Below, piece by piece: positions 26,271 to 52,826 of a stretch of 64,000 nt of DNA. The position numbers were made by a program, and so were the translations under genes. The notes below the pieces were generated by a model. That model was not told where the DNA came from. It searched no databases and worked only from the letters and a program-made list of their open reading frames with translations. This DNA is from Loigolactobacillus jiayinensis (lineage in GTDB: Bacteria; Bacillota; Bacilli; Lactobacillales; Lactobacillaceae). The stretch's first letter is position 1. The number at the start of each line of letters is the position of its first letter. The DNA lies in assembly GCF_003946445.1 (NCBI RefSeq), contig NZ_RHOF01000009.1, positions 1 to 64,000 on the forward strand. The letters are read 5' to 3'.

Positions 26271-26936
<666 letters not shown>

Positions 26937-26970
26937 AAATTTAAAGGATCTCGATTTATTTATTAGGTTA

Positions 26971-33907: not shown

Positions 33908-34298
33908 AAGGTGTAAACCTCTGTAAGCCATGTTTTGTCTCATTGACTGGCTCAGGAACACAATCAATGAGGGCAATCATCTATCTACAGATACAAAATC
34001 TGTCTCCATGCGTCGTTCATTTCCATACATGGAGCGCCCCTACCATAAGTTTGGGTTACTCGCTCGCGGGGTTTACCCGTTCCAACCAATTTGTTTCCAA
34101 ATTGGATCGTCACTGTGGCACTTTTCAGGATATTAATTGCATAGATTGCTCCTTAGCAACGTTCTCCGCCGTTACTGGTCACCCAGTACCTTAGCTTATT
34201 GGGCTAAGCACGAACACTACAAGCATCGCAGCTTGTGCGGGCATGGACTTTCCTCAGCCTACAAAAGTAGACCGCGATCACCCGAAGTTTACACCGGT
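33908..34298 (-). ncRNA. rnpB: RNase P RNA, B type
   Basis: The RNA is the catalytic subunit of RNase P, which trims tRNA 5' ends. On the minus strand the conserved GAGGAAAGTCCATGC block (34255-34241) near the 5' end and ACAAAACATGGCTTACAG (33938-33921) near the 3' end form the P4 helix. The ends pair through GGTGTAAAC/GTTTACACC (P1; 34296-34288 with 33918-33910). At about 390 nt the size fits. It begins just after the gpsB stop; no clear separate promoter is visible, so processing from a gpsB transcript or a promoter inside gpsB is likely. The exact ends are estimated. Confidence 0.96.
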
Positions 34299-49708: not shown

Positions 49709-50755
49709 TTGGCTAAATTATCTGCCCACGCCCATCGCAAAGACGAACATGTTTTTTTAGCAGAAAAGTTTTACACGCCAACTATAACAAATGATTTTGA
49801 TCAAGTTCGTCTGCTGCACCAAAGTTTACCCGAGATTGCCCTGAGTGAAATTGATCTCACCACAACCCTAGCTGGCCAACCGGTGGCCGTGCCTTTTTAC
49901 ATCAACGCCATGACTGGTGGTAGCCCATGCACACAGCAACTAAACCAGCAGTTAGCCACTATTGCGGCTAATTTAGCTATCCCCATGGCCACTGGCTCCC
50001 AAAGTGTCGCTTTGAAGGAACCAGAATTAGCGGCTAGCTTTAAGATCGTTCGTGACGTTAATCCAAAGGGCGTTATTCTAGCTAATTTAGGCGCTGACGC
50101 TACTTTAGCACAGGCAGAGCAAGCAGTAGCCATGTTGCACGCCAACGCGTTACAGGTGCATTTAAATACGCCTCAGGAAGTTGTTATGCCTGAAGGTGAA
50201 CAACGTTTCTACTGGTTGGCCAATCTGAGCCAGCTGGTAACCAAGTTATCTGTGCCCGTCATCGTAAAAGAAGTTGGCTTCGGCATGAGCCAAACGACCC
50301 TCGCCCAATTAAGCCAAGCAGGCAGCCAATACGTTGATCTTGGCGGGCGCGGTGGCACTAATTTTGTCCAAATTGAAAATGCCCGCCGACCACAACGTGA
50401 CCTCGCTTACTTAGCCGGCTGGGGCCAATCGACGGTTGAGTCCTTACTGGAAAGCCGCGCCTACCAGCAGCAACTGACCATCTACGCTTCCGGCGGTGTA
50501 CGCCAGCCGCTGGATATCGTCAAAGCCCTAGCACTAGGCGCCAAATCAGTTGGCGTCGCCGGCACAATTTTACATCATTTACAAAAAAACGGCCTTGATG
50601 CTACGCAAGCATGGCTGGCCGAATGGCTCACACAATTAAAATTAATTTTTGCCTTGCTGGGCTGTCGTAATGTCAGTGAATTACCGCAAAAAGCGCAACT
50701 GATTTTCAGTCCAGAATTGGTGAACTACGCGGCACAACGACAAATCAAACTATAA
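49709..50755 (+). CDS. fni: Isopentenyl-diphosphate delta-isomerase, type 2 (FMN)
   Basis: Fni interconverts isopentenyl and dimethylallyl diphosphate with reduced FMN. The 348-aa TIM-barrel protein has HRKDEHVFLAEKF, the NAMTGGS and ATGSQSVAL segments, VKEVGFGMS, and GGRGGTNF. TTG at 49709 is chosen because AAAGGAGG is 8 nt upstream. It completes the mevalonate-to-C5 pathway encoded by the three preceding genes; the upper branch (HMG-CoA synthase and reductase) is not in the window. Confidence 0.95.
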   Translation: MAKLSAHAHRKDEHVFLAEKFYTPTITNDFDQVRLLHQSLPEIALSEIDLTTTLAGQPVAVPFYINAMTGGSPCTQQLNQQLATIAANLAIPMATGSQSVALKEPELAASFKIVRDVNPKGVILANLGADATLAQAEQAVAMLHANALQVHLNTPQEVVMPEGEQRFYWLANLSQLVTKLSVPVIVKEVGFGMSQTTLAQLSQAGSQYVDLGGRGGTNFVQIENARRPQRDLAYLAGWGQSTVESLLESRAYQQQLTIYASGGVRQPLDIVKALALGAKSVGVAGTILHHLQKNGLDATQAWLAEWLTQLKLIFALLGCRNVSELPQKAQLIFSPELVNYAAQRQIKL

Positions 50756-50805
50756 AAAAGAGTCTTGCTGAAGTACGGCTGCACTATTAGCTCGTAGGCA
50801 GAGTT

Positions 50806-50990
50806 AGTTTGGTTCCATTCCGGCGCTGGCGTATGGAACGCGTGGCACGTTGGCAAGCTAATTTTCTTTCCAATTAAGCCCAATCGGAAAAGAAAATGGA
50901 TCTTGCCAGCCGCGCATGGTACTAGGCGACCACGGTCACCAAGTACCATCGACACAGCTGATAACGCCAGCGCCTCCATTTCACCTTGGC
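50806..50990 (+). repeat. Structured element A
   Basis: Outer arms GGCGCTGGCG and CGCCAGCGCC (50822-50831 with 50965-50974) pair perfectly. Inside are a stem with TTGGCAAG/CTTGCCAG and ATTTTCTT/AAGAAAAT arms (50850-50908) and a 34-nt hairpin (50916-50949) with symmetric one-base mismatches. GTTCCAT/ATGGAAC (50812-50818 with 50833-50839) is an alternative to the outer stem. It shares ordered motifs with element B read on the other strand. Confidence 0.6.
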
Positions 50991-51096
50991 AGCGTTTGAG
51001 CATTATTTTGTGAATTAGATTAATTGTTTGGTTGGTTCAATTAGGATTAACCGACATTTATTAGTGAGTCGTAGCTTTAAAGTAGGTTGTATGTGC

Positions 51097-51143
51097 AAAA
51101 AAACGCCGATAAAACAGTCAGAGAACTGTTTTATCGGCGTTTT
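51097..51143. terminator. Strong hairpin terminator inside the fni-rsmF gap
   Basis: A perfect 19-bp stem (51100-51118 with 51125-51143) with a 6-nt loop has four T on the plus side and seven on the minus side. On the minus strand it would end a transcript that includes element B; on the plus strand it could end fni readthrough. Confidence 0.88.
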
Positions 51144-51204
51144 GTATTCTGATTTCCACTAATAGCTTTGCCACTTAAACAATCAATAGTTAAACGTTCA
51201 ACCG

Positions 51205-51395
51205 TTGCCTGCTGGAATGTAGTCGCCAGTGGGCCGCTATCGCTCGTTCCTAGCAACTAAGTTTAGCAAGTATCAAGTAGTACTTACTCATTAAACAGTG
51301 CTTGCTTCCCGTTGTCGATTGAACTATGGCAAAGACCGCCCAGTTCAAGTCGCACTCGTTCCGTCCACTGGCGACGGAATGGAGGCTAACTAGCT
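51205..51395 (-). repeat. Structured element B
   Basis: Outer arms GTCGCCAGTGG and CCACTGGCGAC (51222-51232 with 51365-51375) pair perfectly over 11 bp. Inside are AGCAAG/CTTGCT (51265-51270 with 51301-51306) and a TTGAACT/AGTTCAA hairpin (51319-51348). TTCCGTC/GACGGAA (51359-51365 with 51373-51379) competes with the outer stem. Read on the minus strand it aligns in motif order and spacing with element A. Confidence 0.6.
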
Positions 51396-51425
51396 CGGTT
51401 TATAGGAAAATTTCAGAGATAATCT

Positions 51426-51454
51426 AAAAAAGAATCCAACTTGGATTCTTTTTT
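51426..51454 (-). terminator. Terminator of rsmF
   Basis: A perfect inverted repeat of A6GAATCCAA around a single central base (51426-51454) overlaps the rsmF stop and ends in a T run on the minus strand. Confidence 0.88.
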
Positions 51455-52826
51455 AGTCCGCAATATCAGCCACAAAGCGTAGTCCTTTGGGAAAGAAATT
51501 CTTCATCGTTTGGCCAGTTAATTTACCGAAGCCAACTGATTTAACCTGATAACGTAGTAGAAACCAGCCTTTACCGGTTGCCGCTGTGGTGAACGTTTCC
51601 CCGTGTACGTATTTGATGTACTGTTCTGTGGTTAAATCGAGCATTTGCTGCGCGCTGGATAAGGTCAAAGCTAGCGCATACGCCGGCTCAAAGCGGTTCC
51701 GCTTAAACTCACCTAAAGGCAAGCCAGGCCGGACAACTTTTAGGCCTTTAAGTGCAACCGCCACTGACTGGGCAAATAAATGCTCACGATGAACCAACAA
51801 ATGTTGATAGTTAGCCGCTGGTAAAATGGCTTGGCTAAAGCCTTGCCATAATGCTTGTTGCTCCTTAGTCAAGGCTGCAACTGGCCGCCGCCCTTTTTTC
51901 GCTTTATGTGCTGCTTTAACAGGTGTTGCTACAGCTGGCGCAGTGTCTGCTAGTCGTAATTTAGCGATAAAGTGCCCTTCACCACGGAATAAATGGGGAA
52001 ATAGCCGCAGCGTGCCGGCTAAGGCGGGGTTGTTATCCGCCCATTCTGGTCGTCCAGCACTCATCCCTGTTGTCCGTTCAATTGGCACCACCGTCAGTGG
52101 GTATTCTTGTAACAACCAAGCGATGATCTGCTCGTCTTCTTCTGGACTAAAGGTGCAAGTTGAATAGATCAATTCACCACCAGGCTGGAGCATTTTTAGC
52201 GTTTCAGTTAAAATTTCTCGTTGCCGCTGCGCACAGGTTGCTGGGTAGTCTGGGGTCCAATATTTTTTAGCCGCTGGATCTTTACGAAACATGCCTTCAC
52301 CAGAACATGGTGCGTCGACTAAAATGCGGTCAAAATAGCTGGGAAATTGGCTAGCTAGCCGTTCTGGCGTTTCATTAGTGATCACAGCGTTGGTAATACC
52401 AAAGCGTTCCACATTTTCGGCCAAGATTTTAGCGCGTTTAGGCATGATCTCATTGGCGACTAATAACCCCTGTTGCTGCATGAAACTAGCTAAATGCGTG
52501 GTTTTTCCACCAGGGGCGGCACATAGATCCAGCACCCGCTCGCCGGGCTGCGGTGCCGCAACGGCTCCAACTAACATGGCACTGGGCTCTTGACTGTACA
52601 CATAGCCGGCTTGATGATCAACCTGGCGCCCTTTCACTGCACCATAGTAACCCCACTGTGACCGCGGTACTGGCTGATCTAAATCCAAGGCAACAGCCTG
52701 CGGATTGGGCTTCAACGGGTTGAGCCGAAAGCCTTTATCGCCACTGGCCTGAAAACTAGCTAGAAAAGCAGTGGCTTCGTCACCTAGTAACTGTTGATAT
52801 TTTGCTGCAAATCCTTCTGGTAACAA
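51453..52826 (-). CDS. rsmF: RsmF-like 16S rRNA (cytosine-C5) methyltransferase
   Basis: The 457-aa protein belongs to the RsmB/RsmF (NOL1/NOP2/sun) family. The SAM site DLCAAPGGKTTHLA, the VDAPCSGEGMFRKD motif with one catalytic Cys, and YSTCTFSPEEDEQ with the other are present, followed by a C-terminal PUA-like RNA-binding region. The start is TTG with AGGGGAA upstream. The target is m5C in 16S rRNA by family analogy. Confidence 0.92.
   Translation of the reverse strand: MLPEGFAAKYQQLLGDEATAFLASFQASGDKGFRLNPLKPNPQAVALDLDQPVPRSQWGYYGAVKGRQVDHQAGYVYSQEPSAMLVGAVAAPQPGERVLDLCAAPGGKTTHLASFMQQQGLLVANEIMPKRAKILAENVERFGITNAVITNETPERLASQFPSYFDRILVDAPCSGEGMFRKDPAAKKYWTPDYPATCAQRQREILTETLKMLQPGGELIYSTCTFSPEEDEQIIAWLLQEYPLTVVPIERTTGMSAGRPEWADNNPALAGTLRLFPHLFRGEGHFIAKLRLADTAPAVATPVKAAHKAKKGRRPVAALTKEQQALWQGFSQAILPAANYQHLLVHREHLFAQSVAVALKGLKVVRPGLPLGEFKRNRFEPAYALALTLSSAQQMLDLTTEQYIKYVHGETFTTAATGKGWFLLRYQVKSVGFGKLTGQTMKNFFPKGLRFVADIAD

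Follow-up and report, generated by a model that had tools for sequence, protein, structure and literature searches.

REPINs and BIMEs are inverted doublets of REP sequences that are moved by RAYT, a Y1 transposase. Inverted doublets, clusters and compensatory changes in the hairpins have been described for them (PMC3116915; PMC6006769), and the single REPs measure 20–40 bp (PMC3733652). The BOX elements of Streptococcus pneumoniae (boxA-boxBn-boxC) have end modules that fold together and variable inner modules that fold independently, and terminal repeats and a target duplication have been reported (PMC3049150). IS1272, which moves by stem-loop-replacing transposition, targets hairpins (PMC5678879). 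There are also stem-loop families in Lactobacillus johnsonii, of which a table gives counts only (PMC2267715). The repeat presented here is described in none of the top-ranked open-licence PMC papers.

We have found a repeat of this general kind in the window, i.e., the whole stretch of 64,000 nt of Loigolactobacillus jiayinensis that was analysed. Two folded domains, A on the plus strand and B on the minus strand, are the inward-facing halves of a single element of 663 bp (50762–51424). The earlier note had taken them for two elements at 50806–51395; the unit is larger, and its target duplications lie outside it. These are two copies of TAAAAAAGA, 9 bp, at 50753–50761 and 51425–51433, the right one within the A-tract of the rsmF terminator. 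The element sits in the terminator between an FMN_dh-family gene, presumably fni-like, and rsmF, which is on the opposite strand (Pfam gave FMN_dh on one side of the gap and RsmF domains on the other). The limits were drawn from the duplication and from comparison with a related species (G003), where the orthologous site is empty and contains a plain, intact terminator. G004, G001 and G007 likewise have a short gap after the same FMN_dh-family gene, G005 is rearranged there, and the right side of the site was read in genomes other than G002 and G006. Both ends of the element are outer arms with a terminal inverted repeat (50762–50814, plus; 51383–51424, minus) that is degenerate here and has the genome consensus GGTTCTTTCTGAANTTTGNCTG. 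In size and coding content the element resembles a MITE, since it measures less than ~1 kb and is overlapped by a single ORF of 50 aa or more, which has 92 aa and is on the minus strand. A single non-autonomous mobile DNA element, with large inward-facing folded domains at both ends, is in our opinion the probable explanation of the locus. A mobile hairpin repeat had been among the suggestions of the earlier note, and the multiple copies, the target duplication and the empty site bear it out.

We read the element as one that would work like REPIN, BOX and MITE repeats, with large folded-DNA domains as the putative recognition parts. Like REPINs and BIMEs it is intergenic, abundant and made of structured units that form inverted doublets and larger clusters with compensatory changes in their hairpins. 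However, the present unit is multi-branched and about 130–180 nt long, against the 20–40 bp of REPs, and the Loigolactobacillus element has target duplications of 8–9 bp. GTGG, one form of the GT[AG]G expected at the foot of a REP palindrome of 20–40 bp, is frequent by eye but does not mark the base of a simple hairpin. On account of this size difference we have not filed the element as a REPIN. The likeness to BOX, compared by architecture alone, concerns the co-folding end modules, the variable inner modules, the terminal repeats and the target duplication, whereas here two such domains stand face to face and several genera of another family carry them. With MITEs it shares the lack of substantial coding sequence, the terminal inverted repeats, the target duplication and the empty site, but its folded core carries outer ends that depend on the species, and an autonomous partner was not found. 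Hairpin targets are common to IS1272 and the present element, although IS1272 replaces the hairpin without duplication and the present element splits the terminator and makes one. On these comparisons we file it as an interspersed folded repeat, probably a member of neither the REPINs nor BOX.

Each half of the window element consists of an 11-bp stem around a branched unit of ~120 nt. Domain A (50813–50983, plus) is closed by arms at 50822–50832 and 50964–50974, seen in the sequence and in covariation, around a unit of ~119 nt with two hairpins (type inA, 50842–50960). Domain B (51213–51384, minus) is closed by 51375–51365 with 51232–51222 and encloses a unit of ~120 nt (type inB, 51235–51354) that is found elsewhere in the genome in tandem and alone. 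Other copies enclose two or three units. As the earlier note had observed, CCATTCCG (50815–50822) and GGAACG (50835–50840) on the plus strand have minus-strand counterparts with identical spacing (51382–51375 and 51362–51357), and the outer arms, given there as perfect over 10–11 bp, have 11 bp in both domains. The covariance model R1 matches A with 192.5 bits, A being among the 36 domains from which it was built. Window B was left out of the model and is still found at E 1.8e-7 (search of one genome), so that the kinship of A and B, which the earlier note wanted weighed against chance, goes beyond it. Between the halves is a 19-bp hairpin at 51100–51143 (51100–51118 pairs with 51125–51143), apparent in the sequence and as a self-inverse match. 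Its description as a strong terminator rests on inspection by eye, since a simple terminator scan omitted it. The closing stem of A has the motif CCATTCC as a direct repeat at its two feet (50815–50822 and 50976–50982); at the 3' foot it reads CCATTTC in the window and often CCATTCC in other copies, and resembles a small duplication.

A search with domain A gave 25 matches in the genome of the window, a number that counts A itself and fragments, and the 697-bp gap gave 67 matching stretches there. Of 60 genomes searched, this one among them, eight had a match. Seven of these belong to the genus, for which eight genomes were present, and one of the seven has a single match of 39 nt; the eighth, from another genus, has one match of 42 nt. 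All 41 stretches found by a pattern scan came from records of Loigolactobacillus backii, binensis, iwatensis or zhaoyuanensis. Module mapping of 30 picked loci revealed a mosaic formed by an outer end, one or more ~120-nt units, a core with the central hairpin, again one or more units and the inverted outer end, the units being single or in tandem (three consecutive in L010). The closing arms differ in their letters while their partners match, and they are spaced by ~120–126, 242–247 or 360–367 nt in most of the copies with a partner, within a list of 134 entries that includes matches lacking a good partner and some other spacings. As in BOX, pairing end modules flank a variable number of inner modules. 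Units of the inB type are also found solitary (L062, L063, L065 and L066 in the window's genome, G000; L077–L079 in G004), closed by their own outer stem, e.g., GTGCGCCATAAGAC...GTCTTATGGCGCAC, and by eye those of G000 directly precede a terminator. In G004 ten unit matches stand against two full domains.

Both ends could be found for nine elements of G000. Five of them, the window element included, are flanked by exact duplications of 8–9 bp; the others have two of 7/8, one of 6/7 and one of 6/9. Since the best-fitting of several offsets was taken, chance could account for the weak ones. When the site was restored, it folded as a hairpin in seven of the nine (z −2.8 to −9.0, with shuffles that preserved base composition only), while that of L073 does not fold (z 0.0) and that of L067 does so without clarity (z −1.8). 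The four elements lacking an exact duplication and these two sites count against the mobile reading. The terminal inverted repeat has 17 matches in the genome at up to three mismatches, vs. two for the control, and is present at both ends of eight of the nine elements at up to five, the window copy being the most degenerate (four and five). The outer ends of the core are of one kind in G000 and G003 and of another in two further species, L. backii and L. iwatensis; in these two CTAG lies within 14 nt in 19 of 28 distinct end matches. This variation also counts against the mobile reading, since the folded core and its outer ends may not share one history: different elements may have captured the core as a passenger, or it may move by itself. 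A minimal form with an internal deletion is seen at L178 (G003:C127:8578-8639), whose 62 bp hold nothing but the two terminal repeats, placed back to back and flanked by a duplication of 7/8 by eye (ACTATGAG/ATTATGAG).

Conservation of the fold was examined in alignment A2, which holds 36 single-unit domains of the genus with an inA unit, taken from 60 single-unit stretches and aligned without reference to structure. The drawn structure had 92.7% paired cells, vs. 36–48% in slid controls, and both sides had changed in a compensatory manner at 28 of the 50 pairs within the genus. The helix of columns 28–35/101–107 was poorly supported (85.7% paired), and inspection by eye suggests a better fit for a GTG/CAC helix, found as GCxGTG with CACxGC in other genera. 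For the unit alignment A1, RNAalifold gave one hairpin with changes on both sides at three of 14 pairs. Outside the genus, an alignment of 51 sequences from three genera showed compensatory change at 47 of 50 pairs and 90.4% pairing, vs. 38–49% when slid, figures that are favoured by the alignment having been fitted to the model. Mean identity between genera was 39–51%, and 12 of the 51 unpaired columns were at least 85% conserved across genera. Pairing conserved in further genomes, on which the earlier note had made its case depend, is thus found within and beyond the genus. Of the eight genomes of the genus, G001 had no match with R1 and the other seven had 2 to 47 each. In a sample of the whole order it matched five of 395 genomes, and model R2 matched 17 of them; the 17 represent seven of the 81 genera sampled and belong without exception to the window's family. 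Both runs applied stricter filters and scored seven candidates per genome, so misses are expected. Under laxer scoring of chosen genomes R1 was found in 17 of 20 and R2 in 12 of 12 (1 to 59 matches each).

The arrangement of the domains was recorded by grouping matches less than 900 nt apart, sequence repeats having been dropped, at loci that had been chosen as matches and are not a random sample. The 122 groups comprised 61 single domains, 55 '+-', 3 '++-', 2 '++--' and 1 '+++--'. All 61 groups with two to five domains read (+)n(−)m, i.e., they show the inverted doubling of palindromic units known from REPINs, and the count of adjacent matches agrees (45 '+-', 2 '++', 1 '--' and 0 '-+'). No group was located within a larger ORF, in a test that disregarded overlapping ORFs under 200 aa, some of which exist. 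Both neighbours were available for 115 groups, and the flanking genes are co-directional in 61 of these, convergent in 38 and divergent in 16. The domains are closer to gene 3' ends (n = 141, median 139 nt) than to 5' ends (n = 96, median 254.5 nt).

Some loci deserve a separate mention. In genus g21 a domain pair is found upstream of the same GNAT gene at L222, L225 and L226, and by eye at L221 and L227 too; across these species inheritance looks vertical, which counts against the mobile reading. At this gene the halves of L225 are swapped with respect to L222, L226 and L227, by eye, as if the whole element had been inverted. One genome of genus g55 has mirrored arrays of four or five domains (L286 +++--, L287 ++--, L288 ++--). 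L246 (G304:C64) contains two identically scoring domains 2.5 kb apart, possibly a recent copy, and in L245 (G022:C45:158000-169000) a TnpB-like gene (OrfB_IS605, Cas12f1-like TNB) lies between domains 3.2 kb apart. This gene and an IS3-type ORF beside L286 were considered as companions and both were taken as chance. The ORFs around clustered copies are ordinary and vary by place (Pfam on eight proteins), and no constant companion gene emerged.

Compensatory change that conserves a structure is usually counted as evidence for RNA. In an RNA under selection G·U pairs are expected to be tolerated and A·C are not. Counting all drawn pairs, there were 43 G·T and 75 A·C in A2, and 180 and 223 in A3. 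Further counts were restricted to pairs that are at least 80% Watson-Crick, and gave 13 G·T vs. 15 A·C out of 1,462 in A2. Across the six genera of A5 there were 30 G·U vs. 55 A·C in 3,573 cells, with A·C at least as frequent as G·U in each genus. Counted by column and genus the values were 19 G·T vs. 34 A·C (p 0.053), or 10 vs. 26 when Loigolactobacillus is set apart (p 0.011), p values that are soft because the sequences are related. The far rows of A3 had 6 G·T vs. 24 A·C, and the Loigolactobacillus rows of A3 went in the opposite direction (67 vs. 39). As a control, the RNase P RNA of the window showed 9 G·U vs. 1 A·C in 97 pairs (one sequence). As G·U does not on the whole outnumber A·C, we would not take RNA for the best reading of the domain. 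Judging from these alignments, the fold would be kept mainly at the DNA level, or partly through copying between arms. The excess of A·C outside Loigolactobacillus hints that the complement of the modelled strand may be the one that matters. We can tentatively go further and propose a distinct class, with a branched DNA fold of ~160 nt and near-strict Watson-Crick covariation in at least seven genera, found singly or in (+)n(−)m arrays and perhaps moved by an undescribed enzyme specific for single strands or cruciforms.

Near-strict Watson-Crick pairs with four alternating pair types and few wobbles are also what would be expected if, at replication, template switching had made one arm of a long quasi-palindrome the template for the other, leaving compensatory changes that have no function and pairing that is not selected. 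Arm-to-arm copying does not explain why the multi-branch plan and some unpaired positions persist at such low identity across genera, which counts against this explanation, and we consider it unlikely.

The earlier note had also proposed copies of a non-coding RNA or an RNA family not yet described. In this case an undescribed structured RNA would be present twice, as A and B, with convergent transcription that starts in the flanking genes or at promoters of the domains themselves. Part of the proposal stands, as the structure is conserved and carries strand-specific unpaired motifs (the 12 columns above). The proximity to gene 3' ends and the G·U excess in the Loigolactobacillus rows of A3 speak in the same sense, and so does the orientation of the nearest domain, which in 104 of 131 cases is sense with respect to the gene reading toward it, a bias that the inward-facing design alone produces for doublets and that the RNA reading would predict too. 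But single domains between co-directional genes are on either strand (19 sense, 16 antisense), wobbles are rare and mostly not favoured over A·C, in contrast to RNase P RNA, and a scan found no sigma-70-like site in 50700–51500. The earlier note had matched the domains to no known RNA, and this agrees with Rfam 15 (4227 families), where no match at gathering score overlaps the window element or occurs in 19 further loci. The weak overlaps (E up to 1) were set aside as chance, being far below their cut-offs: bglG-cis-reg in the core of L067 (33.9 bits, cut-off 80), MIR5998 over the central hairpin in L009 (22.7, cut-off 180) and SpF66 over a unit in L063 (21.6, cut-off 42). In nine diverged loci the sole two Rfam matches, a T-box and a miRNA model, were both outside the domains. 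Elsewhere in the window two ordinary RNAs were recognised, a class B RNase P RNA at 33919–34289 and a binding site for PyrR at 26842–26951. On balance the RNA reading appears improbable to us. Least credible is a site of benefit to the host (a bidirectional barrier to transcription or replication, or a nucleoid site) that spreads as a repeat, as proposed for BIMEs, which the inward symmetry of all multi-domain groups, the preference for gene 3' ends and the several g21 loci kept at one GNAT gene would suit, but which is at odds with a copy number of 0 to 47 matches per genome within one genus and with the neighbour genes examined, which vary from place to place.

Returning to the non-autonomous mobile DNA element, what is seen is its interspersion between genes, the duplication, the empty site, the folded inward-facing halves and the variable number of units. 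For REPINs, recognition by a Y1 enzyme of their own has been presumed; in the present case, likewise, a transposase supplied in trans would recognise the domains in single-stranded or extruded DNA. Terminators would be tolerated as landing sites because the element supplies a central hairpin of its own, and the ~120-nt units could multiply through recombination between the GGAACG(A/C)G motifs that border them.

We have searched for the possible mobiliser, and that the searches below revealed none counts against the mobile reading. No insertion sequence was seen in the six terminal-repeat loci that were read for an autonomous element with the same ends, and among 301 genomes from the family only two, which are Loigolactobacillus, contain the repeat at up to one mismatch. 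Duplications of 8 bp together with GGNTCTTT ends would, we presume, point to ISL3. The ISL3 transposase genes of the genus adjoin a different terminal repeat, and ISL3 was rejected, as the ISL3-like ends of the genus share just about the first eight letters with the element. Pfam detected no RAYT (Y1) among the eight neighbour proteins scanned. Carriage by plasmids or phages was discarded after blastn of 50760–51430 gave no match in either, and carriage by viruses after the exact end pattern gave none in viral contigs.

The wobble test, with the exceptions mentioned, points to DNA, and genome scans may wrongly class families of this kind as RNA. Lactic acid bacteria gain a large repeat family that we did not find catalogued, and with it comes the question of which enzyme reads a DNA fold this large.
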